Shown in pieces: positions 21,086-36,157 of a DNA stretch of 64,000 bases (within the stretch, counting starts at the first letter, position 1; each line of letters begins with the position of its first letter). Source of the DNA: Limnomonas spitsbergensis (lineage: Eukaryota; Chlorophyta; Chlorophyceae; Chlamydomonadales). A program made the position numbers and the translations under genes. The DNA lies in NCBI GenBank assembly GCA_037349105.1, contig JAYJMM010000109.1, forward strand, positions 4,482,001 to 4,546,000, in the 5' to 3' direction. The notes under the pieces are model-generated. The model did not search any database, had not been told where the DNA came from, and saw only the letters and a list, made by a program, of their open reading frames with translations.

Positions 21086-21209
21086 CACATACATGCATCC
21101 CGAGCTATCTTGCAGCACCCATACCACACTACAGAGTTCATTATGTTTTCATTTTGGTTGTATAGGAATATGCATTCCTCATGCTGCCGCATGGGTGCAT
21201 GCACATATG
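21086..21209 (+). repeat. Repeat F, left copy at retrotransposon target
   Basis: Diverged direct copy of 36154-36345. Shared landmarks are ATGCATCC, GAGCTATC, GC.GCACCCATACCAC, ATTATGTTTTCA/ATAATGTTTTCA, TTCCTCATGC and CCGCATGGGTGCATGCA. The copy ends at the TATG target duplication. Confidence 0.8.
21206..21209. repeat. Target-site duplication TATG, left
   Basis: TATG immediately precedes the element terminus TGTCGCACC. The same four bases follow the other terminus (TGTGACA|TATG, 36154-36157). Confidence 0.65.
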
Positions 21210-21452
21210 TGTCGCACCATAAAGCAGTAACTGCAATACTATGGTAAATACCGTGAACTCCGGTCAGGACGCCTTAGAGAGGCGTCCTCTACTCACAACT
21301 ACGGTGCAGCGTCGTACACTCATGCTCCTTGTACTACATACAAGAGCTGTTTAACAAGATAAGAAAGGCACAGCCCTAGTAGGAGAGTCTTCCTGTCTAG
21401 GGCCTGTCTGGGTGTCCCTGTCTCGTGGGTACCGCCCCTACTACTTTACTCG
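21210..21452 (-). repeat. Terminal block b, outer copy (b2)
   Basis: 243 bp, starting TGTCGCACC and ending TACTTTACTCG. It is ~98% identical to 22088-22338. It joins block a at a CG/TGA junction shared with the other a copy (CG.GA|TGTGCGC). Confidence 0.9.
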
Positions 21453-21455
21453 TGA

Positions 21456-22085
21456 TGTGCGCTTCAGGTCCGTGGCGGACTTCTTTCCTCACGGCAGTGA
21501 CGGACGCCTACGGGCAGACTCAGTGACTCTTCACTGGCTGCGAGTGCTCAGCGAGTTAAGCAGCTGAGCTGGATATTTGTATGTATAGCAAAAGACTAAG
21601 GTAGCGTAGGCCTTCTAGCCATCTGGGCGCGATCCAGCAGGGCTATGTTAAGGGCACTTACCGCGCAACACGCGGTGAGGTGGCCGGGACGTAGACTGCG
21701 TACTTCTTCTTCTGCAGGGTCTCGGTTCTCTACTGAGGTACTTGTCTCCAGCTAGTTCAGACGAGGCTGGACTAGTCTTGACTCGGATTAAGGTACTGAC
21801 TTATGTGAACGTAGGAGGTCTCATACACGGATGACGGCCGGCGCTTGTTACAAATAGAGGTCTGTCCTTTTGAAAGGGACGAAGTAACTAGTTGGGCAAT
21901 TGCCGGGATACAGGGACCCGGCAGGCCCAATTCAGAGTACGGTAAATTATGCACTTCACCCTGCGTAAGCGGGTTTCTAGGTCTCAGTTCAAATCAGGAG
22001 GCTCCGCAGAGAAGCTGCGGAGGCTCCGTGGCCGCTAGTGGCGGCTCCAACGGTTCTGTCACGTATACGGTAATATACTGTGACA
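21456..22085 (-). repeat. Terminal block a, 3' copy (a2)
   Basis: 630 bp, TGTGCGC...TGTGACA in plus orientation (TGTCACA...GCGCACA in sense). It is the same length as 35524-36153 with about four substitutions. One substitution (21871) alters the segment complementary to the primer-binding site. Confidence 0.92.
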
Positions 22086-22087
22086 GC

Positions 22088-22338
22088 TGTCGCACCATAA
22101 AGCAGTAACTGCAATACTATGGTAAATACCGTGAACTCCGGTCAGGACGCCTTAGAGAGGCGTCCTCTACTCACAACTACGGTACAGCGTCGTACACTCA
22201 TGCTCCTTGTACTACATACAAGAGATGTTTAACAAGATAAGAAAGGCACAGCCCTAGTAGGAGTCTAGGAGAGTCTTCCTGTCTAGGGCCTGTCTGGGTG
22301 TCCCTGTCTCGTGGGTACCGCCCCTACTACTTTACTCG
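22088..22338 (-). repeat. Terminal block b, inner copy (b1)
   Basis: 251 bp. Relative to 21210-21452 it has an 8-bp tandem duplication (TCTAGGAG) near 22265 and a few substitutions. It is separated from block a by only GC, making the palindrome GACAGCTGTC at the junction. Confidence 0.9.
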
Positions 22339-22351
22339 CCCCCCGCTCCCC
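22339..22351 (-). promoter_or_regulatory. Candidate polypurine tract
   Basis: The minus strand reads GGGGAGCGGGGGG directly before block b1. In retrotransposons a purine run just upstream of the 3' terminal repeat primes plus-strand DNA synthesis. That role here is inferred from position and composition only. Confidence 0.5.
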
Positions 22352-22917
22352 AGCGTTAAGCCCTCCAGGCATGCGCGGGGAGCCGGAAAAGGGGTGGTAC
22401 TGAAAGAAACTTCTGGAAAATATGTACGTAGAAGCTCAAACTGTTTTAGCAAATCTGCCTGGTTCAGGCCTTCTTCAAAAAGAAAAATTCCACAGAGTTC
22501 AACTGCTGATGCGCACATGCGCGGAATCCTACAAATCCTAACTGTTCAGCCCACTACTGGCTAGCAAACAGAGTTCTCTCCAAATTCATCAGGGCAGGCT
22601 AAGAATAACCGCTGCTCTCGCCCCACTGCGCCATAGACACCTGGTCTTCACGGCCACAGGAAATGTGCGCCGTAGCAGCGGGGTCTGCCCCCTGCTGTGT
22701 TATCAACACACGAACTGACTAACTATCTTCATCCATCACTGCCCCAGCAAATGTATTACTGCCGCCTTGCTGCTACAGGTATTTTGAGAAACAAATTTCA
22801 GACAGGCCGTGCTGCGTCTGGATGTCTCTTCTACTACGCAGACGCCTGCCCGCTCCTTGCCATTAACGTTCCGTGCTCAGCGGCCTTGCCGCTTCTGGGC
22901 TCGGCCTTCCCTGAGGG

Positions 22918-23700
22918 TCAGGTCTCAGTAGACCCCTCAAATGCTGATTCTTCCTCCTCCTTTGCTGCTTCCTTGGCCACCTTAGCCCTTCTGGCTACTG
23001 CCCTCGGGGTGACATTGGCCTCTCCCCTGCCAGTGGTGTACGAGATGTCGTACAACCCGTTCGCCATTGGCCTTGCGATGCCCCGCTCCATTTGCCTTGT
23101 TGCTGGGTTGGTGGCCATAACTTCCACCTCAGGCTTGTCCATGACATTGGCCTCCGGGGCCGCCCTGGCTGCCGCTCTGGCGGCTGGGCTCGGCCGCCCC
23201 TGGCCCCCCACACTGTGGGCTTCCGTAGCGGGCCCTGCTATCGCAGCGGGCCAAGCTCCCTTGTCTTCAGGCGTGCACCTTGGGCACACCCACTCGCCTT
23301 CAGGCACCTCTTCGAGTGCCGGTACCAAGCAATCCATGTGCCAACCCGCGACCAGCAGTGCCTCCTTGATCCTGGCCACTCTGGCCAAGAGTAGGTCTGC
23401 CGCCTCCTCTGCTGTTGCCACCTTGGCTGTGTTCCACAGGTTCGCCCCCACTCTGGAGGGAAAGGTGGGTCTCTGCCCGAACAGCACCTCGTACGGCGCC
23501 ATGCGTGTGGCCTGCTGCGGCGAGCAGCGGAAGCCTAGAGCCACCCAAGGCACCATTTTGTCCCAGGATTCGTCGCTGCTCCCTTCCTCGCAGCACTTGC
23601 GCAAGCCTGCTTTGAGGGTCTGGACAGCCCTCTCTGACAGCCCGTCTGCCTGGTTCTTGTGCTGCGTCGGCCCAATCTGCCGCAGCAGACTCTCCCAGGC
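22918..23700 (-). pseudogene. Pol remnant: DDE integrase C-terminal part plus half PHD finger
   Basis: The frame contains QADGLSERAVQTLKAGLRK, WDKMVPWVALGF and SPYEV-like APYEVLFGQRP. This is the catalytic-Glu helix and following region of a retroviral-type integrase; the Glu of SER is at about 23634. About 95 residues later comes GWHMDCL...VPEGEWVCPRC, the His-x2-Cys...Trp-x-Cys-x2-Cys second half of a PHD finger; its first four Cys ligands are absent. The tail is Ala/Arg/Glu-rich and stops at 22918. Upstream the frame is out of register with the rest of pol, and the first two integrase catalytic Asp residues are deleted. Confidence 0.75.
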
Positions 23701-24511
23701 ACTGCCTGTACGACGCGGCCACCTCCCCACTGCCAGAGCACGCGTTTCCTCCAAAGGGCTCGAAAAGGACCACTCCCTCCGCCTCCATGGCCTGCACGGC
23801 CTGAGCCGGTAGGCACATTGTGTCCACTCCCTGCGTACCGCAGTAGCCTGGTAGATCCTCCATTGAGTAAGCGAACGCTCCTTGGCGATCCCTGAGGCTC
23901 TGCTCAAGGCTCTCCTGCTGTTCCGCAGTGAAGTCGGGGTGCTGGCCCAGCAGCCACCCCTCCTTGGTTTTGACGTACTCCGCGGGCGGCTCCACTACTC
24001 CCCCCGGCTGGAACATGTCGATCATCTCAGCCGCCTGCGGGTCGTCCTCCGCGGGCGGTTCCTCCCTGCCAGTGTTGTTGCTGCGTTGCCAGCCCTCCTG
24101 CCGGCTGCAGGCACCCCTCCTGCTGGCACCCCCCATGGGGATGACTGCTGGCGGGCGCAACCATCCAGATGACAGCTTCGCTGCTGCCTCTTGACCGGAC
24201 ACAAAAGCCCCCTGGCTTGCTGTAAATCCTCCTCCCCGTACTCCCTGCTCGGTGGCTCGCGCCCCTGGTACACACACCGACAGCAGGAGCCACACCAGTA
24301 TCAGCTGGAGCGTCCCCGTAAGGATCCCCTTAAATGCTGTACAGGTCAGGAGTCCTCTGCAAGCTGGCATCTGCCGCGTGGGTTTCTGCGGTAGGTGCTC
24401 TGTGGGCTGTACGCATGGCTCCGCACTCTGTGCTGGCCTCTGCTGCCCTCTGGCCCACGTGATCTCCAGGTCTACCTGGCTGATCCTGAGTGGCAGGACT
24501 GGGCAGTCCAT
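23690..24511 (-). pseudogene. Pol remnant upstream of the reverse transcriptase deletion
   Basis: Overlaps the end of the giant ORF by 40 bp in the -1 frame, ATG at 24511. Near the N-terminus is a hydrophobic stretch (GTLQLILVWLLLSVCV) that could be a membrane helix or signal. Near 23960-23860 the frame reads EEQ-type linker sequence KTKEGWLLGQHPDF...AFAYSMEDLPGYCG, which in Gypsy Pol precedes reverse transcriptase. Instead of RT it runs within ~20 residues into GVVLFEPFGG and then loses register near 23700-23760. FEPFGG resembles the start of a methyltransferase-like domain I recall from algal Gypsy Pol proteins (unsearched). RT, RNase H and most integrase are thus deleted. No clear -1 slippery heptamer was found in the overlap. 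Confidence 0.6.
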
Positions 24512-27500
24512 TCCCGGTCTGCTGCCACGGTCCCTGTCCGCGGCTGCCCTTTGCGCCTTCCCTGCACGTCGCCTAGCCTTCTTTGACTTTTTCCTCGCAA
24601 CTCGGCTGTGTCAGCCCAAGCCGTACCGGCCCTTTCTGGCCCTGCTCCTGGGTTATGTCTAGTGCTGCCTTGTGCCAGCCGCTCTTGCCTGCGAGTAGCG
24701 CGCTGCACAGCCTTGTTGCTGCCTGCACCCGCGGGCTCCTCTGGCCCGCAGCCCCGTCGCATGGCTTCCCGAGCGCTGGCAACTTGCCTTGCAGGGTCCT
24801 CCACCCTGCTGGTTCGGGCTTGGCTGCCCTCCCAGGTGGCTGCGTTCCCAGCCCGGCCCGTTGGCCTGGACTGCTGCCATCCTGGGGCCTGGCTGCTGCG
24901 ACTGTCCGACGGCTGTTGGGTGGCTACTCCCTTTGCTCCCATCGTTCCTAGGGCTGATATTTTCCCTGCCAACTCCTCTTGCAGATCCCTGAGCGCCCGG
25001 TTGTACCCTCCCAATCTTGGGTCCGTATCAGGTGCCGGCAGCGCTCTCAGCTGGAACCGCAGGCTGGACTCTTGGCCTGCTTCTTGCAGGCCTATGTCCT
25101 GCCTCCTCTGCTCGTCCAGCTGATCTACGAAGGTCTTCAGCACAGCTGTCCAGCATCCTGTACTGTACGCTGCTGGGTCACCCCAGGGTTCCCTTGCCTG
25201 TGCTGACACTGGCGTGCTGGAATGGGCACCCCCTGGGCGGTCACTGCCTGCTCCACAGGCTGCTGTAACTTCTGAGTCTGAGGTGTGTGGGGCTGCTGCC
25301 TGCCGCGGGTTGACCCCCACTGCGGCCTGGCGCGCCCCAACCTCCAGCTCCCCCCTGCTGCTGCTCTCCTTATCGCGCGCAGCCTTCTCCTGACTAATGC
25401 TGCTCATCCACTCTTGCTGTAGCTGTAACAACTCCTCCTCGAGGCCCCACCCTGGACTCCCTGGTCCTGGGCCTGCGTCGGTTGGCTCCTCCATTCCATC
25501 TGCATCCCCGGCATCTGCTCTTGTGATGCTGATCCTTTCCGGGAACGTGGTTCCGTCAGCGCCCCACTCCTCTTCTGACTCTGAATCCTGCACCAGTGAT
25601 GGTGGCCCTTCCGAAGGGTCTTCGTTCTCCCCTCCTAGCCGTCCCGTGCCCTCCTGGCGGGAGTGAAGCTCTTCGCTGGCCCTTGGATCCCTGCTGTCCA
25701 GGTCTCCTGCAAGTGATCTGCTGGTACTGTCCGGGAGCGTCTGGGGCTCCGCCCGCTCCCCGGGCTCAGCCTCCAGGGCTGACACTTCCATCTCCCCCAT
25801 GGGCTCCAGCCATTCCCAAGAGGATGCTGTTGCCCCGAGTGTGGTGACGAAGGCTACATGGCCCCGTTCTGGTGGCTCGTGCGCGTCCTGGATTGGTCCG
25901 TCACTGTCAGCAGCGGGGTCCCAATAGTGGGCACCATATCTGCCCACTATCCAGCGTCCCAGCACGGGCTGAGTCCTCAGCTCCTCCAGCTCCTCCATGT
26001 AGGTATCCGATCCTGCTCCTCTGAACAAGGGATGCAGCGTGCGCACCCCTGCCGGGTGCGCCTGCCTCCACAGCTGTACTGCCATACCGTTTGCTTGCCA
26101 ATAAGGCCCCACGCTGCTGGCCCTGTTGTCGCGCCACGCTCTTCTCTCCCAGCGCACCCACTGGTGCACGCACGCTTCTAACCTCTCCACTGCGAACGGC
26201 GAGCGCGCGAACTCCTCTTCGTCTTCCCACATGGGTCCATCTGCTGGCGACCTCTGGATCCCATATGGCCATGTGGGGCAGTCTGTCATTTCCAGGGGCG
26301 CCCACTGATCATCCACGCCCCACACATGCCGCATGGCTGCTGACAGCTGGCCCGGTAGCAGGACCCGTTGCAACGCCATGAGCATGACTGCCCATGTCGC
26401 TGGACCTGCTCCCCTGGCGTGCGTGTGCGCGTGGAATTCTGCCTCGTCGACTGATGCGCACTTGGTGATCGCCACGTTCCCTTCGCTCCTTGCGAACAGG
26501 AAGACTGGCATGTTATCCCGCGACGCATGCATGTGGATCCATGCCTCTGAAACAGGCATTTCTCCCTCTTCCAGCTCCTCGTAGTAGTAAGTTACCAGCT
26601 GCTGAACTGGGATGGCTGCCCTGGCTTCCCCAGGAGCCACTCCCCACGGTACAGCTTGCCCTGCGACCATCCTGGGGATGGTGACCGACGCCTCAACGGT
26701 GGCCTCACACCGCCTTGGCCTATCGGAATGGCACAGCCCTGCCCCGCCGTAGGTTCCATCCTCTGACCTGTCACCCCCTCCGTGCCCTCCTAAGGCCTGC
26801 ACGGGCACGTAGAAAGCGCGGTCTCTGAGAGCGGGGTGCTCCATCAACTGATGGACGCAGTCCTCCGCCCATGGCGTGCGCTTGAACCCGGGCTGCGTGC
26901 CCTGCCACACCCCCTCGGTGCGCGTGCTATCCGGCACGTCTGGGTGCGCCCTGTCGGCTGCGGCCACCGCTGTGATGCCTTCTTTGACGGCTAGGTCCAC
27001 CATCTCGTTAACGCAGTATGCGTAGATGGGGTGCTGTGACCACCCCCTCTGCATATAATCCTCCATCCTTGTGCTGGGCTGTATGAACCCCTTGAGTCCT
27101 GCACCCAGCAGGACTGCTGTCACCGCGTCCCACGGAAAAATCAGTCTGGCCACTGCCTGCATGGCTGCCGCTATGTTGACACACGTCTGCGTCCTGCCTT
27201 CCAGGAGCCTGAGGTTCTGCAACCTACATAGCCCGTCCTTGGACTGTGCTGGCAGAGTGATCATAGCCTCTGAAGACGACGCCTCTGGCATTTCTTCCCC
27301 CAGGCGGTACCACTGCACGAAGCACCTGCTCTCTGGCAGTCTCGGCGGGTCTGGCCCAGGGCGAACCCGCCCTCTGCTGCCTGACCTGTCCCGGCGGCCT
27401 TCACCGCCCTGGTTGAATTGGGAATCCTCATGCCATGCAGCGGGCCTCTCGCCCCTGCTGCGGCTGCGCTGCAGCCCTCTGTCCGCCTCTTCCCATCTTG

Positions 27501-30500
27501 CAGGGTTGGACAGAGAGGTGGTACTGTGACGGGTCCTAACGGGCCCCGCCGTATTGTCCTCTTGACTCATAGCTGCTGCCCCCCTGGCCCTTGGGTGGTG
27601 AGCCTGCACGCTGAGCCAATCCCGGGTCCTGGTGGCTGCTCCCGCTACCTCGCCGCCTGTGTCGTTGTTGCCCTCCGGGGTACCTGGGCAGAGCATGGCA
27701 GCTTCCTCTTCACGTACTGTTAAAGGAGCTTGAGGCTCATAGCCCTCCATTGAGACGTTGGAGCTGTCCCCACTGGAACTGGTCTCCCATTCGTCTACTC
27801 TGTGCTGGGGTGCTGCCTCCTGCTCTACTAGCCTCTCAAACGCATCCATCTGGGCATCGTAGATATCCCATTCTTTGTTGAGAAACTGCTGGAACATGCC
27901 AGGCCATCCCTCACACGGGGCAGGGCACCCCCTCTGCTGGAGGTCCCTGAGAAACTCCACTGCATGCGCCATGGATCTGGCTGACCCTGCGGGCCGAGTA
28001 CCATAGTGATTCATGGCCAGGGCCTCTACCGCCATCTGCCAGTGGTGTCGTTGCTGGGCCACCTGCCCTTCTGGCACCACCTGGAATGTTATAGGCATTG
28101 CTGCGGCCTGGTGGCCCATAAGTGGTGTTGCTTCGGCCTGCCCCGAACCCTCGTGGACAGACACCAGACAAGTGTGCCTCTCTTGGCTGACCCACCTGGA
28201 ATTGTATGACTGTCCGGCTGGTCCCGGCCAACCCGGCGGGCCTGGCAGTTCACTTGGGCCAGCTGCCTGCTGCTGTTTCTTCCAGTCCTCGTAGGAGACC
28301 TCCTTGGCAGCCTCATAAGCTTGCCTCATGCTGTCTTCTGAAGCTTCTTGGCTCCTGCCAGGTCCCCTGACTCCCCAGCCCCGTTCTGGGCCTGATGATG
28401 CTCGCAGTCGGTCAAACCGGCTGCTATCGCCTGGCTGCGAGGCCTGTCCCTGCTCTGGGCACGCATTAGCGTAGTGCCCTGGCTTCAAGCAATTGAAGCA
28501 GACTCCCCCATCGTGGGGTCCAAGGACACCGCTCTGTCCACCCATCCAACTGCGCCCTGCCTGGGCCCTGCCCGGCGGACTCTGGCCGGAGGTCCTCCTT
28601 TTATCCTGCTCTCTCTCCTCCAGCTTGTATGGCCTGGCTTGACCACCTGCACTTCGCTCTTGTGACCTGCCCCTGGGCTGGCCTCCGCGGTCCCTGCTGG
28701 GTGACCGTTGCCTTCTGCCTCTAGGCTGGTCGTATCGATCATTGCGGTCCGGCCGCTGGGTTCGAGCCTCAGGTGTAGGCACCACCCCGTGGCGTTCTAC
28801 GCTGTGGGCCCTCTGCGCGCTCCTGCTGCGCTCTCTGGTCCCCTTGTTCTTTGCAGCATCTGGGGTTGTCCCCCTGTGCTGCGCGCGCTCCTCCGCTTTG
28901 GCCTCCCTGGCCCTGCCACTGCCCCCTGGTCCTTGCTGACCAGTGGCTTGCTGTTCTTGCTCCAGCAGCTTCTCCTGGTCAAGATCCTCGTCCTCATCTG
29001 TGAGCGGGGCCGCGGGTAGAAGCATTACTCTTATGTGTTCTGCCAGCTCCGGGTCTGCTGGGGCTGTGAACTGCAGCGGCTCTCCTGCCTGCTGGTTCCC
29101 CAGGTTGGCGTACAGCTCTCGCAGCTGGTCTGCGCGCAAGATGTACTGCTGCTGTACCTCCGTGAGCCGTATATTGGCATCCTGGAGGCCTGTCCACCTG
29201 ACCTGCTGCAACCGCAGGTATTCAATTGTTGCTGCAGCCTGGCGGTATAGCTGCTCCTCTCTTGACCTGACGTCTTGCTGCAGCAACGTCACTTGCTGCT
29301 GCAGCTTCAGTACATGCATGTACTTCTTACTGGGCATCTTTTCCTGGGCTTCTTCCTCCTCTGAATCCTCTGGCTCTTCACTCTCCTCCTTGCTGCCAGG
29401 CTCCTCCTGGCCGCGGTTTGCTGTTACCCCCCGCGTTCTGTCTGCTGCCTCTGGGGCGTCTTTCCTAACGCCCCCATCATCCTCACAGGCCCTCTCGCCC
29501 CTGCCAGGTACTCGCACCTCCGAGCGCCTCATTGATCCCCCTGATGCGGCTCTCCCTGCTGCAGCTGCCCCGAAGGCCAACCGCCGTGTTGCTCCTGATG
29601 ATGTCCCCTGGGCTGCGAGGACTGCCCCATCCTTCTGCAGTAGCTCCTGGATTCTCTGCTCGCACTCCTCTGGTGAGTGCTGGCCAGGCTCTCCGCACAA
29701 GACGCATGGGTGGCTTGGGCTTGCCACCACGCACCTCCTGATGATGTCCTTTTCAGATGCTGGCCTTGATGCTGCCTTGCGTGCCATTTTTATCTCATCT
29801 GATACCGCAGCACCGGCCTCTGCCTGTGCTGCCGCCTGGCTCTGCTGTGACGCAGCAACCCTGGCCTCCATCTTGACCTCCCCGGGCACTGCAGCCTGCA
29901 CTTGCCTGTGCTGGCGCGGCCTGGAAGGGGCCTCCTGTGGGCCCCCACGGCTACTCCTGCCTGCCTCTGCGGCGCTTCTGCCTGCATCTGCGGCTGTTCC
30001 GCGGCTTTGTCCTGCTTCTTGGTTAGTCCTCATGGCGGCACCTGTGTGTGTGGCCATGGCATGCTGTAAGAGTGGCTCATGTTCTTCCTCAACACTGGCC
30101 GCAGGCCACCCTTCCCGTTCTGCAAATCCGCACTGGATTCCTGCCCATGCCACTGCTGCTGCCTGGTACCCCCCTGCTGGGGATGCTAGCACCAGCGGCA
30201 GCGTGAGGTCCCTGACCCCTCGTACTGTCTGGGGGCCATCTCTGGGGCGTAAGGTCAGCCTTCCTGCTGCCTCCAACACCCCACTGTACTTGAGGAACTC
30301 CGGGTTCCCTACCAAGTGTTCGTATGCATCGGGTGGCGTCTTAACGACCCTGACCACCGTGGGTTCCATAATGGCATTGGGCCCACCGTATCCGTACACC
30401 ACATAAATGAAGAGCACTCCATACAGATCTGCCCCTGCATTGTCTGTGGTACGGATCTTCTCATCCGTCCGGATCAGTTCTGCCCCCATGGCTACTAACT

Positions 30501-33500
30501 GTTCCGCAATGTTGACTGTGATCACATGGCAGGAGCATGCTGAGTCCATGAGGGCCTTTTGAGCCACCAGGACCTTTCCTTTGACCATAAGTCCCACACA
30601 TTGCTCCAGATTGCTTCTGTCATTCTTAAAATACTGCAGCCTTGGTGCAGCTGTGACAGCCTTGCTCTCCTGCCTGCCTTTACCGGCCTTACCCCTGTGG
30701 TCTTCTGAACCCATGGGCATAGTGGTGAACGACAACGCTGTCAGCCTCTCGTTCAACTTGAACACCTGCAGTCGGATGTCAGACATATCGTCAGCCAATT
30801 TGCTCAAAACCAGCCTCTTTGCTCCCTTCCTGGAGGCAGGTTCCACGAGCCTTTGCTCAGGTTCCTCCTCCTGGCAGGGTTCTGGCAAGAATGACCTAGG
30901 ACGAGCGTTGTGAGCTGCCTGTTTGAATCCTGCGGGTTTGGGCACCAGCCCAACCTGCGTCATGAGTGCTACAGACTCGCTGAGCATCTCTGCCATAGTC
31001 TGTTGCCAGCCCTCTGGCTCAGCTTGCCCCGTTGGGCTGCTTAGGTGTGATACGTGTGCCGCTTGCTGAGCCTGACCCCCCTGGCCAGGCCCTGGCCGCT
31101 GGTACTGCCTGTTGTTCTGATTCCGCTCGTACGGCCTGCCTGCAGGTTGACCCTGCTGTGGCCTTGGCGGTAGTGGATACTGCTGCGGCGGCGGCCTTGC
31201 CTGCCCAGTTGTAATGTCTGTAGCGAGTGGCGCAGCCCTGCGGTCATCCCTGGCCCTGGGCACCCTGCAGTCCCTGGCCAGGTGCGCTGTGCTGCCACAC
31301 TGGTAACATGCCTTGGCTGTCCCCACAGCGCCTTCTGCACTGTAATTGGGTGCCCCGGCTTGATCTGCCCAGGTAACACCCCTGGGTTTGCCGTCAATCC
31401 GCAGTTGCTGGACAGCTGCTGAGCCTGCGGGGTTCACTGCCCCTTCAAGGCGCGTCCGCATCTCCCACTGTCCAGATCTCTCCCTTCTTGTTCTGTTGGG
31501 CTGCACCTCTCCCTGGCTAGGCCCGCTGGCCATCTGTTTGAGGCTTGCGCCTCCTAGGTCCCCCATTTCCAGGGCAAATTTCTCCCACAGCACCACCTGC
31601 TGTGTGAGCACTGCAATCTGATCTTCATCAGTCATGCTGAGGTACCCTGGTACTGTCATAACAAACTTGCTCAGCTTGGCCTTAGCGTTTGCCGGAAGTC
31701 CGTCATGGAACAGATGCGAGACAGAGTGCCGTCTGCCGAAGTGGTCCACTGCGTCCCTTGAGATCTGCAGCAACTCTGCTGTCGACAGTACTCTGTGAGC
31801 AAATGCTTCCACCGTCTCTTCTGGCTTGACGTCAGGGTCGAGGGTGGTCTTCACCCCTAGCCTGAGATTGGAGATGGCTGTCCTCTCATCTGAGGTTGGC
31901 TTCCCCACCTCTGCTTGGACTACCTTGATCCACAAGGTTAGCAGCGAGGCTTCGCAACACTGCTCCTCTGCTGGGGCAATCCACAGCCCCCTGATCCTTT
32001 CTGCTTCTCTGGCAGCCCTGTCTCCCGCATGGGGCGCCGCCCTGATGGCTACCATCAGCGGCCCCACGCTAGCTGGCTTGCTGTCCCATAGCTTGACCAG
32101 CGACTTCACCAGCATTGTCATAGCTGACGGCGACTGGCACGATCCAGCTATTTCTCCTGCCACCACAGCCAGCGCTGGCGGGTCATCTGACAGCGCCAGC
32201 CTGTTGTGCGATCCCCAATATCCACACGCCTGGCAATATTTCCTGGCTGCAACCGCGCCCGGGTGCGACATATCCAACACCGGCACGTTGCCTTGGATAG
32301 CCGGGATTTTTGTGAACTTGGCTACCCCTGCCAGCTGCAGGACCATCTGCTGCTGCAGCTGCAGGTTCACCCTTGCCTGCTCCCTATCGAGCCTTTTCAT
32401 TTCCTGGTCGCTGGACTCCTGCCTGGCTCCCGGCCTGCGCCTGTCCGTTCCTCCTGGTCCTGAATCTACTGATTCTGACCGCGACCCAGATCCTCCACCA
32501 CCGCCCCTCGATGGGCTGCGACCTGAATGGTATCTGTCATGTCTGTAATAATCTTCCTCCTGATCATGATCTTCTCGTGATGGCTGTCTGCCTGCTCTTC
32601 CTGCAGAGCTTCTACTCCCATCAGGTGGCGGCCGTTCTGATTCGCTTCTGCCTGGTCTGCTGTCAGAGCCAGGCCTCCAAGACTGTGCTCTGCCAGGCTC
32701 TGCCTGTCCCCTGGGCAGCTCCTGGTCTTGCCAATCCTGCTGCGTCCCTCTGCTGTGTTCCGCTGGTCCCCTGGGTTGCTCCTGGCTTTGCTGGCTTGGC
32801 TGTTCCCTGCCATCTGCCTGCCCTCTGGGCGGCTCCTGGCTATGCCGGTTTGGCTGTTCTCTGCTGTATGCCTGCCCCCTGGGCGGCTCCTGGCTCTGCC
32901 AACCTGGCTGCGTCCCGCCTGTGTAATTCCTGGCATAGGAATCAGACTGCGTTTCCTCTCTGGCTTCCTGCATTCTTGGACCGCTGCTCCGCACGCTGCC
33001 TGCAGGCTCATTCCTCCTGGTTCCACTCGCTGTGCACGCCTGCCTGTTCCTCAGGAATTCCTCAATGTAATCCACCTGGATTTCCTGGCATGTGTTCTCT
33101 TCGTCCTCGACTATGCGTAGTAATGCATAAGACTCTTGCCTGTTTGCTCTGCGTGTTGCTATGCCTTGCCCTGCCATCCTGGCAAGTGATCGGCTAGTCA
33201 ACTCCGCCCTTTCGCTGGCGGCTGGGCTGCTGGCTCTGGGTGCTTCCCTGCCCCTTGGCCTTCCTCTGAGGCTTGGCTCGCTGCTGACCTCGAAGACCTC
33301 AGATCTGAGTGTTGGGGTTGGCGCGGCTCTTGCCTGCTGCTGCCACCTTTGCACCTCCCTGAGCTCCTCTGGCCGCTGCACTGCTGTTTCAAATCCTTCC
33401 CATGCCTGGTCCTCCTCATCGTCTGGCTCGGATCCAGGTTCTACCTGATTTCCTGTTACCTCGTTGCACCATTCATCTGCGAAGGTCTTAACAGCCAGGG

Positions 33501-34800
33501 CTGCTTCGCGTCCCGCCCTTCCCTTGGATACCAGTCCAAGGGCGGCTAACAGCGTCGCCCTGTCCTGCCCTGTGTGGGGAATACCCATCATGGCCTTTGT
33601 TGCCCATCCCCGCAGATGATGGGCCTTGAACTCCTCAATGGCTGTGACCTGGTCCTGGAAATGCAAGAACGTCCTGGAGCAAACTTGCTTCCACAGGTCC
33701 GTTGCCCACTGCAAAATTCCTGCCCAACCAATCGGCTGCATCTGTCCTTCTGACTCCTCTTCGCCGCACACTACTCCCCCAGGCTCGGAGCGTTCTGGCT
33801 CTCTAGGGCTGGTATCCTGCGCTCTTGATGGATCGTGAAAAAATCCTCGCAGGATTTCCTGGTTGTCGTCTCTCTGCATCTGGCTGCTAGATCCCTCCTT
33901 GGATTTCTGCACAGGTCTGCCCACTCTGGGCGGAAACCTGGACAGCGGCGTCCCATAGGCTGTGGATCCAGCCCCTCTTCTAACCAGCACCCTGCGCGGT
34001 CGCAGCTGCTGCCTTGGACGCAGCCCTGCCTTAGGCTGCTGCCCCTTCTCTTCCTGAACTGGGTCTGACAGTTCTTCCTCGGATATTAGGTCAGCCCAAG
34101 GCTTCCCTACCGGTACAGCTGATTGTTCCCTCTCCTTGCCGACCTGCGAGTTCTGCCTGCCCACTGCTGGCTGTACCTCAGCTTCCTCGTGTTTGACCCC
34201 TGCAGGCACACTCCTGGTCTCCACTTCCTCTGCTTTCATTCGTGGTTTGTCTGGGTAGGTTTTATCACGGCCTGCAACCTCTCTTGGTGCTGCGGCTACC
34301 TCGGCCCTTTGATCCGGCTGGCTGGGTTCGTCTTTGACCCGTTGTGCGACCCTTGCCACCCTGGGCGGATTCTGCTGGGGCGTGGCTTCAGGATCGCAGT
34401 TCTGCCGCGTGTCACAGCTCTGGGACACTTCCTTTGCTTGATCCAAAATCAGCTCTGGTGTTCCCGCTTGCGTCTGCCACTGCTCGAATTCCAGGCTGCC
34501 CCTGGAATCAGCGGGCACTGGACCCCCTCGACCGATGCCTTTACGCGTCACTAGTGCCGAGCCGTCTGCCTGCGCCCCTGCCTCTCTGGGCGGTACGCGG
34601 CCCGGTTCTGGCACCTTGTGGTCTCCTGCGGGCGGTCCCACTGGCCCTGCCAGCTTCGCCGCCACCAACAGGGCTTCTGCAGCCAGCTCATCACTAGCTT
34701 CCATCAGGTTTACACCCGGCTCCAGCCCCCTCAGACGCCCACTTCTCCGTTGGGCGTCAGGGTGCTGGTGCCTATCGGGATTCAGATCTACGTCTGTCAT
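24472..34800 (-). CDS. Giant gag/protease-like polyprotein of the retrotransposon
   Basis: One uninterrupted frame of 3442 codons from the ATG at 34800; an upstream in-frame GTG at 34851 is less likely. Approximate residues: 1-850 is charged, Arg/Ser/Gln-rich and low-complexity, with a QEPPRGQA-type repeat at ~640-750. 870-1140 is a helical gag/capsid-like region (VEAFAHRVL, LFHDGLPANAKAKL). 1165-1178 is a CCHC knuckle CYQCGSTAHLARDC. ~1418 has MDSACSCHVI, a possible retropepsin D-S-A site. 1699-1713 is a variant knuckle CVLCGEPGQHSPEEC. 1820-1905 is a coiled coil. 2101-2114 is a third knuckle CFNCLKPGHYANAC. The last ~1300 residues match nothing I recognise (acidic, Trp-rich; HVWGVDDQW). Two gag-like units in one ORF suggest fusion or duplication. 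It lacks reverse transcriptase motifs. Confidence 0.8.
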   Translation of the reverse strand: MTDVDLNPDRHQHPDAQRRSGRLRGLEPGVNLMEASDELAAEALLVAAKLAGPVGPPAGDHKVPEPGRVPPREAGAQADGSALVTRKGIGRGGPVPADSRGSLEFEQWQTQAGTPELILDQAKEVSQSCDTRQNCDPEATPQQNPPRVARVAQRVKDEPSQPDQRAEVAAAPREVAGRDKTYPDKPRMKAEEVETRSVPAGVKHEEAEVQPAVGRQNSQVGKEREQSAVPVGKPWADLISEEELSDPVQEEKGQQPKAGLRPRQQLRPRRVLVRRGAGSTAYGTPLSRFPPRVGRPVQKSKEGSSSQMQRDDNQEILRGFFHDPSRAQDTSPREPERSEPGGVVCGEEESEGQMQPIGWAGILQWATDLWKQVCSRTFLHFQDQVTAIEEFKAHHLRGWATKAMMGIPHTGQDRATLLAALGLVSKGRAGREAALAVKTFADEWCNEVTGNQVEPGSEPDDEEDQAWEGFETAVQRPEELREVQRWQQQARAAPTPTLRSEVFEVSSEPSLRGRPRGREAPRASSPAASERAELTSRSLARMAGQGIATRRANRQESYALLRIVEDEENTCQEIQVDYIEEFLRNRQACTASGTRRNEPAGSVRSSGPRMQEAREETQSDSYARNYTGGTQPGWQSQEPPRGQAYSREQPNRHSQEPPRGQADGREQPSQQSQEQPRGPAEHSRGTQQDWQDQELPRGQAEPGRAQSWRPGSDSRPGRSESERPPPDGSRSSAGRAGRQPSREDHDQEEDYYRHDRYHSGRSPSRGGGGGSGSRSESVDSGPGGTDRRRPGARQESSDQEMKRLDREQARVNLQLQQQMVLQLAGVAKFTKIPAIQGNVPVLDMSHPGAVAARKYCQACGYWGSHNRLALSDDPPALAVVAGEIAGSCQSPSAMTMLVKSLVKLWDSKPASVGPLMVAIRAAPHAGDRAAREAERIRGLWIAPAEEQCCEASLLTLWIKVVQAEVGKPTSDERTAISNLRLGVKTTLDPDVKPEETVEAFAHRVLSTAELLQISRDAVDHFGRRHSVSHLFHDGLPANAKAKLSKFVMTVPGYLSMTDEDQIAVLTQQVVLWEKFALEMGDLGGASLKQMASGPSQGEVQPNRTRRERSGQWEMRTRLEGAVNPAGSAAVQQLRIDGKPRGVTWADQAGAPNYSAEGAVGTAKACYQCGSTAHLARDCRVPRARDDRRAAPLATDITTGQARPPPQQYPLPPRPQQGQPAGRPYERNQNNRQYQRPGPGQGGQAQQAAHVSHLSSPTGQAEPEGWQQTMAEMLSESVALMTQVGLVPKPAGFKQAAHNARPRSFLPEPCQEEEPEQRLVEPASRKGAKRLVLSKLADDMSDIRLQVFKLNERLTALSFTTMPMGSEDHRGKAGKGRQESKAVTAAPRLQYFKNDRSNLEQCVGLMVKGKVLVAQKALMDSACSCHVITVNIAEQLVAMGAELIRTDEKIRTTDNAGADLYGVLFIYVVYGYGGPNAIMEPTVVRVVKTPPDAYEHLVGNPEFLKYSGVLEAAGRLTLRPRDGPQTVRGVRDLTLPLVLASPAGGYQAAAVAWAGIQCGFAEREGWPAASVEEEHEPLLQHAMATHTGAAMRTNQEAGQSRGTAADAGRSAAEAGRSSRGGPQEAPSRPRQHRQVQAAVPGEVKMEARVAASQQSQAAAQAEAGAAVSDEIKMARKAASRPASEKDIIRRCVVASPSHPCVLCGEPGQHSPEECEQRIQELLQKDGAVLAAQGTSSGATRRLAFGAAAAGRAASGGSMRRSEVRVPGRGERACEDDGGVRKDAPEAADRTRGVTANRGQEEPGSKEESEEPEDSEEEEAQEKMPSKKYMHVLKLQQQVTLLQQDVRSREEQLYRQAAATIEYLRLQQVRWTGLQDANIRLTEVQQQYILRADQLRELYANLGNQQAGEPLQFTAPADPELAEHIRVMLLPAAPLTDEDEDLDQEKLLEQEQQATGQQGPGGSGRAREAKAEERAQHRGTTPDAAKNKGTRERSRSAQRAHSVERHGVVPTPEARTQRPDRNDRYDQPRGRRQRSPSRDRGGQPRGRSQERSAGGQARPYKLEEREQDKRRTSGQSPPGRAQAGRSWMGGQSGVLGPHDGGVCFNCLKPGHYANACPEQGQASQPGDSSRFDRLRASSGPERGWGVRGPGRSQEASEDSMRQAYEAAKEVSYEDWKKQQQAAGPSELPGPPGWPGPAGQSYNSRWVSQERHTCLVSVHEGSGQAEATPLMGHQAAAMPITFQVVPEGQVAQQRHHWQMAVEALAMNHYGTRPAGSARSMAHAVEFLRDLQQRGCPAPCEGWPGMFQQFLNKEWDIYDAQMDAFERLVEQEAAPQHRVDEWETSSSGDSSNVSMEGYEPQAPLTVREEEAAMLCPGTPEGNNDTGGEVAGAATRTRDWLSVQAHHPRARGAAAMSQEDNTAGPVRTRHSTTSLSNPARWEEADRGLQRSRSRGERPAAWHEDSQFNQGGEGRRDRSGSRGRVRPGPDPPRLPESRCFVQWYRLGEEMPEASSSEAMITLPAQSKDGLCRLQNLRLLEGRTQTCVNIAAAMQAVARLIFPWDAVTAVLLGAGLKGFIQPSTRMEDYMQRGWSQHPIYAYCVNEMVDLAVKEGITAVAAADRAHPDVPDSTRTEGVWQGTQPGFKRTPWAEDCVHQLMEHPALRDRAFYVPVQALGGHGGGDRSEDGTYGGAGLCHSDRPRRCEATVEASVTIPRMVAGQAVPWGVAPGEARAAIPVQQLVTYYYEELEEGEMPVSEAWIHMHASRDNMPVFLFARSEGNVAITKCASVDEAEFHAHTHARGAGPATWAVMLMALQRVLLPGQLSAAMRHVWGVDDQWAPLEMTDCPTWPYGIQRSPADGPMWEDEEEFARSPFAVERLEACVHQWVRWERRAWRDNRASSVGPYWQANGMAVQLWRQAHPAGVRTLHPLFRGAGSDTYMEELEELRTQPVLGRWIVGRYGAHYWDPAADSDGPIQDAHEPPERGHVAFVTTLGATASSWEWLEPMGEMEVSALEAEPGERAEPQTLPDSTSRSLAGDLDSRDPRASEELHSRQEGTGRLGGENEDPSEGPPSLVQDSESEEEWGADGTTFPERISITRADAGDADGMEEPTDAGPGPGSPGWGLEEELLQLQQEWMSSISQEKAARDKESSSRGELEVGARQAAVGVNPRQAAAPHTSDSEVTAACGAGSDRPGGAHSSTPVSAQAREPWGDPAAYSTGCWTAVLKTFVDQLDEQRRQDIGLQEAGQESSLRFQLRALPAPDTDPRLGGYNRALRDLQEELAGKISALGTMGAKGVATQQPSDSRSSQAPGWQQSRPTGRAGNAATWEGSQARTSRVEDPARQVASAREAMRRGCGPEEPAGAGSNKAVQRATRRQERLAQGSTRHNPGAGPERAGTAWADTAELRGKSQRRLGDVQGRRKGQPRTGTVAADREWTAQSCHSGSAR

Positions 34801-35495
34801 TCCTACAGGCAATTTACGAACTGCACGGTCCTGCAAGCGTGCTGGCGACACCCCCTACAGGATCTGCTAACGTTAGGCTTCTGCCCCCTTGTTCCTACTG
34901 CAATCTGGTGAGGGTTTGCAAGTCAAGATCGGACGGCAGGTACAGCAATATGCAGGATAGGCCTCGCCTTCCTGCTTTTCTGCTCACTAATTTCAATCTG
35001 GCGGAATCCTCCTTCGCCTTTTCAGTTCTTCCCACCTTGCTGGCTGGGCTGCTTCTAGATGTCTCACGTCCTGCGTGGATGTCACACGCCCTGCGTGGAT
35101 GTGGCCTCTTGCGTAGTGTCCGCTCAGCTCTGCTTCCCTGCGGGGATCCTTTGGCACACCCACAAGATTTCAAACTTGGATGTTCTATCCACAAGTTCAC
35201 TTCTGTCAATGATGAAAGATTGGATCCACCCGATCACAATCTGCAGTCACACAGGTAATTATCTGCTGGGTGTATAAATCCTCAGCCAGATCTTCAAGCC
35301 ACTCCTGGACTCAACACTAAGCTGCCACGCTCAGTGATTCTCAGGGTTTAACTTGGCAATCTCTCTCTGGAGATTACCACAGCAAAGTGCAGTTCAAACA
35401 CTGTCCAAGGTCGTTTGCATGCAAACAAAATTCCAATTCCGCTGCACAAGCACCTTTAGCAGGAATTGGCAAATCAAGCTGATCAGGCTAGATCC

Positions 35496-35518
35496 ACTTC
35501 GTCCCTTTCTAAAGGACA
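35496..35518 (-). promoter_or_regulatory. Primer-binding segment, self-complementary type
   Basis: Lies directly inside block a1 on the sense strand, after CACATCGCG. Its 23 nt are perfectly complementary to 35931-35953 within the same block a. No tRNA 3' end is evident. Position and complementarity match the self-primed retrotransposon Tf1, where the mRNA 5' end anneals to the PBS. Confidence 0.7.
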
Positions 35519-35523
35519 CGCGA

Positions 35524-36153
35524 TGTGCGCTTCAGGTCCGTGGCGGACTTCTTTCCTCACGGCAGTGACGGACGCCTACGGGCAGACTCAGTGACTCTTC
35601 ACTGGCTGCGAGTGCTCAGCGAGTTAAGCAGCTGAGCTGGATATTTGTATGTATAGCAATAGACTAAGGTAGCGTAGGCCTTCTAGCCGTCTGGGCGCGA
35701 TCCAGCAGGGCTATGTTAAGGGCACTTACCGCGCAACACGCGGTGACGTGGCCGGGACGTAGACTGCGTACTTCTTCTTCTGCAGGGTCTCGGTTCTCTA
35801 CTGAGGTACTTGTCTCCAGCTAGTTCAGACGAGGCTGGACTAGTCTTGACTCGGATTAAGGTACTGACTTATGTGAACGTAGGAGGTCTCATACACGGAT
35901 GACGGCCGGCGCTTGTTACAAATAGAGGTCTGTCCTTTAGAAAGGGACGAAGTAACTAGTTGGGCAATTGCCGGGATACAGGGACCCGGCAGGCCCAATT
36001 CAGAGTACGGTAAATTATGCACTTCACCCTGCGTAAGCGGGTTTCTAGGTCTCAGTTCAAATCAGGAGGCTCCGCAGAGAAGCTGCGGAGGCTCCGTGGC
36101 CGCTAGTGGCGGCTCCAACGGTTCTGTCACGTATACGGTAATATACTGTGACA
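35524..36153 (-). repeat. Terminal block a, 5' copy (a1)
   Basis: 630 bp at the sense 5' end of the element, TGTCACA...GCGCACA. It should hold the promoter. The segment complementary to the PBS (35931-35953) lies ~200 bp in and is the predicted region of the transcript 5' end. A weak TATA-like TAATTTA lies ~60 bp upstream of it on the sense strand. Confidence 0.92.
35931..35953 (-). promoter_or_regulatory. Predicted self-primer in block a
   Basis: 23 nt whose sense-strand sequence (ACTTCGTCCC...) pairs perfectly with the segment at 35496-35518. The 3' copy of block a (21863-21885) has one mismatch at 21871. Confidence 0.65.
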
Positions 36154-36157
36154 TATG
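36154..36157. repeat. Target-site duplication TATG, right
   Basis: Follows the element end TGTGACA; matches 21206-21209. Confidence 0.65.

Follow-up and report, generated by a model that had tools for sequence, protein, structure and literature searches.

Split direct repeats on a Ty3/gypsy-type retrotransposon family of Limnomonas spitsbergensis and a probable offset between its reverse-transcription and integration ends

Introduction

A retrotransposon combining repeats of the DIRS structure, Gypsy domains and a DNMT3 methylase, KnitGypsy-Dnmt3, was described in 2018 from Klebsormidium nitens (PMC5890265). The available part of that paper gives no target duplication, priming mode, joints or mechanism for it, and our literature search, which covered titles and the openings of abstracts and included few subscription journals, returned no explanation of KnitGypsy-Dnmt3 and no self-priming, target duplications or joints for it. 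For retroviruses, Panganiban and Temin placed a circle junction inside a viral genome in 1984, and later work identified linear DNA as the integration substrate (both as recounted in PMC11054761). Tetramers of HIV-1 integrase are described as cutting the palindromic LTR-LTR joint in vitro at CA on both strands, with mostly 4-base overhangs (PMC1905944), and integration from 2-LTR circles has been reported in cells after drug removal (PMC4372172).

Split direct repeats count as a hallmark of retrotransposons with a tyrosine recombinase; here an element of the LTR type that encodes a DDE integrase carries them. The layout itself is known from KnitGypsy-Dnmt3, and what is new here is its probable logic, that is, a self-primer, offset ends and a variable joint.

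Results and Discussion

Structure of the element

The window, i.e. the whole analyzed stretch of 64,000 nucleotides, carries the element at positions 36153-21210, with the minus strand as the sense strand; all features below lie on this strand and are given in window positions. The order is a1-internal-b1-GC-a2-b2. Repeat a1 (35519..36153) forms the 5' end of the element and starts with TGTCACAG; b1 (22088..22338) and a2 (21451..22085) lie beyond the internal part and are followed by b2 (21210..21450), which forms the 3' end and terminates in GGTGCGACA. The termini are TG...CA, and the sequence reads CATA in sense on both flanks, at 36154..36157 on the 5' side and at 21206..21209 on the 3' side, a 4-bp target duplication. 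The two a repeats are identical at 626 of 630 bases (four mismatches, no gaps), and the two b repeats align over 241 bases with two mismatches and one gap. An earlier note on this DNA had described the two repeat blocks in this sense order, the TG...CA ends and the 4-bp duplication, and the sequence bears it out with slightly refined boundaries: a extends five bases more (TCGCG), b proper begins with AGTAAAG, and CG is common to both sides of the a|b joint. The lengths of the repeats, about 630 and 240 bp, together with their recurrence elsewhere in the genome, rule out chance.

Coding content of the window copy and of an intact relative

The window copy contains an open frame of 3460 aa (24472..34854), which is gag-like, has a zinc knuckle and shows no RT match. 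Four direct repeats of 54 nt lie within this frame (32699-32920) and are 61-76% like the reference copy. A second frame of 358 aa (22918..23994) contains, as its alignment to an intact relative has shown, fragments from the 3' portion of the polyprotein: a linker piece (23752-23648), a piece behind the integrase core (23652-23518) and a C-terminal/PHD remnant (23517-22921). A remnant of the methylase region (23732..23935) is a weak match with 42% identity.

The intact relative (L083, contig C68) has an open frame of 5121 aa and the layout a1, PPT-b1-GC-a2-b2 between AGTG on both flanks. Its Pfam matches are RVT_1, RT_RNaseH, C-5 methylase, Integrase_H2C2, rve and PHD; the methylase, which matches DNMT3A, 3B and 3C chains among solved structures, sits between RNaseH and integrase, and RT-RNaseH before integrase is the Ty3/gypsy pol order. 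Compared with this relative, the window copy has lost the RT, RNaseH, the methylase core and the zinc-binding and core ranges of the integrase, and the alignment stops 56 residues into the RT-RNaseH piece, ahead of the RVT_1 match. The DDE-integrase remnant proposed in the earlier note is present but small: 45 residues just past the Pfam integrase core (QADGLSERAVQ...) are 100% identical to the intact family integrase, and the C-terminal/PHD region has 59-86% identity to it. The window copy is an internally deleted, non-autonomous member of a Ty3/gypsy-type family.

Searching the genome with the RT yielded 131 scored matches, 99-100% identical and with frames of up to 5315 aa. These matches indicate that the autonomous group is young and abundant, which makes the mechanism testable in living cells. 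The methylase region has 136 relatives, of which 120 are listed; the listed ones show 37-48% identity, and most of them carry precomputed RT, integrase and PHD domains. The named relatives belong to Haematococcus lacustris, Monoraphidium neglectum, Chlamydomonas eustigma and Cymbomonas tetramitiformis; for C. tetramitiformis no PHD is listed. A homologue search with the 358-aa integrase remnant gave no match at E<=0.001, and no relative of the element was found in the viral contigs scanned. Other families of the same genome have integrases 66-68% identical (C28:459449, C95:57887, C103:3349454 and C124:5482697).

The coding content bears on the reading suggested by the repeats alone, since the split direct repeats a-internal-b-a-b would fit a tyrosine-recombinase element of the PAT/Kangaroo kind or a derivative of one. 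Against it stand the LTR-type RT_RNaseH, the presence of the integrase core, H2C2 and PHD, and the 4-bp target duplications. The phage-integrase (tyrosine recombinase) family had no Pfam match in the scanned frames, the N-terminal ~2800 aa of the 5121-aa frame being covered only via the gag-like frame of the window. A tyrosine-recombinase element is refuted by the integrase and the target duplications, and we regard this reading, derivatives included, as very improbable.

Recurrence of the layout across the genome

The genome searched comprises 260 Mb in 124 contigs. The query b-a-b gave 47 matches, and 40 of 2296 first-look candidates were scored; for the young group, 20 of 40 listed right ends and 20 of 40 listed left ends were sampled. 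Seventeen of the 20 right ends fetched read internal-b-a-b or internal-b-a-b-a-b, the longer form occurring at three of the 20 loci (L041, L047 and L049), and three were solo a-b, two of which are a duplicate pair. At the left, sense b was lacking directly upstream of a1 in 28 of 30 ends from the older group of the window copy (two of the 30 being a duplicate pair) and in all 20 ends from the young group. The two exceptions among the 30 are L038 (C112:1878718-1879561), a tandem int3-b-GC-a-internal array, and L014 (C123:2233842), an odd a(deleted)-b-a in which a strongly shortened a precedes b-GC-a-internal; the latter is the sole candidate for the opposite opening a-b-a-int-b. At another locus (L013, C83:1753090) two inverted copies lie head to head, with the starts of a about ten bases apart.

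Matching 4-bp target duplications flank 14 of 15 position-paired a-int-b-a-b copies, one of the 14 being a segmental duplicate; the pair at C83:1176864/1162031 has none. Pairs were scored where both flanks were read, and L025/L047, which lie on opposite strands, were excluded. Within copies, a1 and a2 differ at 0-5 sites (seven copies), whereas a1 differs at 7-39 sites between copies; the 0-7 mismatches between b1 and b2 within copies overlap the range of 3-24 for b1 between copies.

The earlier note had left a choice between an undescribed Gypsy architecture and a rearranged or misassembled copy, to be settled by other genomic copies. Independent insertions with different duplications share a-internal-b-a-b, including a copy with a complete polyprotein frame, so that the architecture is genuine and the second possibility is rejected; undescribed it is not, given the DIRS-like repeats reported for KnitGypsy-Dnmt3 (PMC5890265). 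A single rearranged or misassembled copy is refuted by this recurrence. More generally, an ordinary element whose LTR is a+b, with the window copy as its rearranged, tandem or misassembled form, would agree with the solo a-b copies with target duplications, found at two loci (CGAT and CCCC on both sides). Such solos would, however, also be the expected product of recombination between a1 and a2, sense b lies between a1 and the internal part in none of the 30 left ends, and the same layout stands at independent insertions with different duplications, which leaves an ordinary a+b LTR with next to no probability.

Shorter a-int-b copies made up seven of 20 in the older group, where one more was unclear (L103) and one was a b-b deletion (L098), and one of 20 in the young group. 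As they are common in the older and rare in the young group, subsequent b1-b2 recombination would suffice as a simple source. In L098 (C84:484700-485040) b joins b directly inside GGTGCGA|GTAAAG, and a is absent. Alternatively, all integrated forms could be circles opened by cutting at random palindromes, with 1-LTR circles giving a-int-b, 2-LTR circles giving a-int-b-a-b and larger ones giving b-a-b-a-b. Target duplications at all three a-int-b copies checked and the b-a-b-a-b form at three of the 20 fetched right ends are in line with this; the uneven share of a-int-b in the two groups, for which b1-b2 recombination suffices, and the absence of a-b-a-int-b from all 20 young left ends speak against it, and we consider it quite improbable.

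Priming marks and the unit of reverse transcription

Directly after a1 lies a putative primer-binding site, TGTCCTTTAGAAAGGGACGAAGT (35496..35518). Its perfect 23-base complement, ACTTCGTCCCTTTCTAAAGGACA (35931..35953), sits at about position 201-223 of a, where it marks the predicted RNA start and a putative self-primer. Priming by a tRNA half was dropped once this complement inside a had been found. A polypurine-like tract, GGGGAGCGGGGGG (22339..22351), precedes b1.

Over all 23 bases, primer and site are perfectly complementary in 24 of the 30 left ends (again including the duplicate pair), and the intact relative has the same primer and primer site. Two ends, L017 and L027, carry matching substitutions in both primer and site; in random trials, two or more matching substitutions arose by chance in 13 of 200000. 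The change is in the primer alone in L028 and L029 and in the site alone in L015, L025, L026 and L033. Self-priming is expected to leave covariation of this kind because each primer serves as the template from which the following primer site is made. The 23-base complement with its covariation is thus what Tf1-like self-priming from the predicted RNA start would leave. With the primer site after a1 and the polypurine tract before b1, the cDNA would begin where b begins and finish where a finishes, and we infer that reverse transcription has b-GC-a, rather than a-b, as its repeat unit.

Palindrome at the b-GC-a joint

The integration ends fall inside this unit, at the perfect palindrome GACA-GC-TGTC of the b1-a2 joint (22082..22091), which we propose as the candidate cleavage site of the integrase. 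The spacer of b-GC-a has two bases in all 100 joints listed of 498, GC in 99 and GT in one. Cutting after CA on both strands of the palindrome would yield two ends with recessed CA and 2-base 5' overhangs, and such ends would have the form produced by canonical 3' processing.

Variation of the a|b joint

Joining of cDNA ends at a2|b2 (21450..21455; here TCACG|A, canonically TCGCG|AGTAAAG) would be expected to make this joint vary where joints copied from the template do not. Joints were counted by a pattern allowing 0-8 spacer bases between fixed flanks, which misses deletions and diverged subgroups, and the counts refer to the first 100 matches listed, which include duplicates or two joints of one copy. 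Of 283 a|b joints, 100 were listed; 83 of these were canonical and 17 had extra bases: T in four, TG in four, TGT in one and A in eight. T, TG and TGT, together nine of the 17 variants, correspond to the beginning of the primer site, which does not explain the eight with an extra A. The PPT|b1 joint showed one length variant, an extra G, among 100 listed (326 in all). Fisher's test gave p = 7e-5 for the variation of a|b against PPT|b1 and 7e-6 against b-GC-a, values that are indicative, as some matches are duplicates.

Direct reading covered 41 a|b joints at 37 loci, partly the same as the pattern matches. Length variants, which are scattered on a tree of these joints, comprised TG in one joint, T in three, CG in one, a loss of nine bases in one and an insertion of four bases in one; CG matches the bases preceding b1, and single substitutions were also present. 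In the young group two of nine a|b joints vary (L153 and L154). In each of the three b-a-b-a-b copies, the two a|b joints match at all 16 bases compared, which would fit capture of an extra b-a piece or its gain through unequal exchange. A third subgroup (L155-L160, L162, L164, L167-L172 and L174) has b starting with GAGTGAAG, with the polypurine tract in place and a run of six or seven G before b1. Among the copies missed by the pattern, mostly of this subgroup, the run has seven bases in eight of 17 read; this length difference is slippage in the run, and the PPT|b1 control is not constant everywhere.

Judged by these sequences, a2|b2 has the look of a place where cDNA ends were joined. The circle-derived a|b joint with CG microhomology considered in the earlier note comes close to the joint data, with the difference that it would be routine in the life cycle and not damage to a single copy. 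A different origin would be copying in the DIRS/PAT manner combined with a DDE integrase: the RNA would extend from a1 to b2 and pass on both b2 and the a2|b2 joint, b1-a2 would serve as the splint for circle closure, and the integrase would then act on the restored joint. The repeat order equals that given for PAT-like elements, Ngaro and VIPER (PMC4157794, PMC6681497), and the 83 identical joints among the 100 listed agree with inheritance. Extra bases at 17 of 100 listed a|b joints, nine of them prefixes of the primer site, against one and none of 100 listed at the two template-copied joints, point the other way, as do the polypurine tract before b1 and the covarying self-primer after a1, which mark strand starts of the ordinary LTR type. 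We consider DIRS/PAT-style copying unlikely.

Proposed replication cycle

We favor a cycle in which the ends of reverse transcription differ from those of integration, and would give it, on sequence alone, a probability of roughly two in three. The RNA would start about 200 bases into a1, and its first 23 bases would fold back onto their complement right after a1 and prime minus-strand DNA, with the plus strand beginning at the polypurine tract before b1. The resulting cDNA would be b-GC-a-internal-b-GC-a, with the integration ends inside its repeats. The DDE integrase would ignore the cDNA ends and cut GACA|GC|TGTC within the 5' repeat, creating both TG/CA ends in one step, and these would be inserted with a 4-bp stagger. 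The unused cDNA ends, the end of a and the start of b, would be joined by host end joining, either before strand transfer, as a circle, or after it, and the final product would be a-internal-b-a|b. The architecture, the target duplications, the coding content, the primer-site covariation and the variable a|b joint as against the near-constant template-copied joints are observed; the RNA start, the cleavage of the palindrome by the integrase, the order of steps and the reason for the choice of the 5' repeat are inferred.

The preference for the 5' repeat is the main gap of this cycle. If a free, symmetric 2-LTR circle were opened at random, a-b-a-int-b and a-int-b-a-b should be equally frequent, and the near-absence of the former calls for an extra rule. 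The signature of a-b-a-int-b was found at none of the 100 listed b-GC-a joints, 25 of which are unclassified. By pattern, 55 of these joints had the polypurine tract upstream, two had an a|b match (b-a-b-a-b) and 43 had neither. Twenty of the 43 were read: 17 had the tract, most of them belonging to the third subgroup, two had neither, and one had a different sequence upstream, yet lay one repeat unit behind a PPT-b copy. Three of the 100 listed joints lie inside b-a-b-a-b arrays, one of them judged from spacing. The integrase may act at a stage when the second strand is complete in the 5' repeat but not yet in the 3' repeat. The canonical a|b joint (83 of 100 listed) is also very uniform for end joining, which counts against the cycle.

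For the integrase itself, we lean slightly towards a lineage that makes no use of the physical cDNA ends but cuts a palindromic site resembling a circle junction in the 5' repeat, while the host joins the leftovers. If this is true, the integrase would routinely use an interior palindrome, the kind of substrate that was at one time suggested for retroviruses and later abandoned, and insertion would regularly involve end joining by the host. Split direct repeats would then be a by-product of offset ends and could arise independently of tyrosine recombinases.

Comparison with known systems

KnitGypsy-Dnmt3 resembles the present family, as far as its description allows a likeness to be drawn, in the DNMT3-type methylase within a Gypsy Pol frame and in the DIRS-like repeats (PMC5890265); in the present family the integrase is followed by a PHD finger, and the open frame has about 5100 aa. 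The PAT-like group, Kangaroo, Ngaro and VIPER of the DIRS order share the split direct repeats A1-internal-B1-A2-B2, but the PAT-like group is described as having a tyrosine recombinase and no target duplication (PMC4157794), whereas the present family has a DDE integrase, TG...CA ends and 4-bp duplications. With Ty3/gypsy elements it shares RT-RNaseH before integrase, the TG...CA ends and a short target duplication, while the conventional LTR-internal-LTR layout was not found among 20 right and 30 left ends. Two elements of Chlamydomonas can be likened by description only: TOC1, with its odd LTR layout, and REM1, a PHD-bearing Ty3/gypsy element.

Tf1 has conventional LTRs. As in Tf1/sushi elements, the primer site has its complement within the repeat, where the RNA is predicted to start, but Tf1 is described as using the first 11 bases of its RNA as primer (PMC7175516), whereas 23 bases and offset integration ends are proposed here. 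The b-GC-a palindrome resembles the CA-spacer-TG palindrome of the retroviral 2-LTR circle junction and would be a natural counterpart of the interior junction of Panganiban and Temin. Retroviruses differ in that linear ends are their accepted substrate and the overhangs described for HIV have mostly four bases, while the spacer has two bases here and the linear ends are apparently unused.
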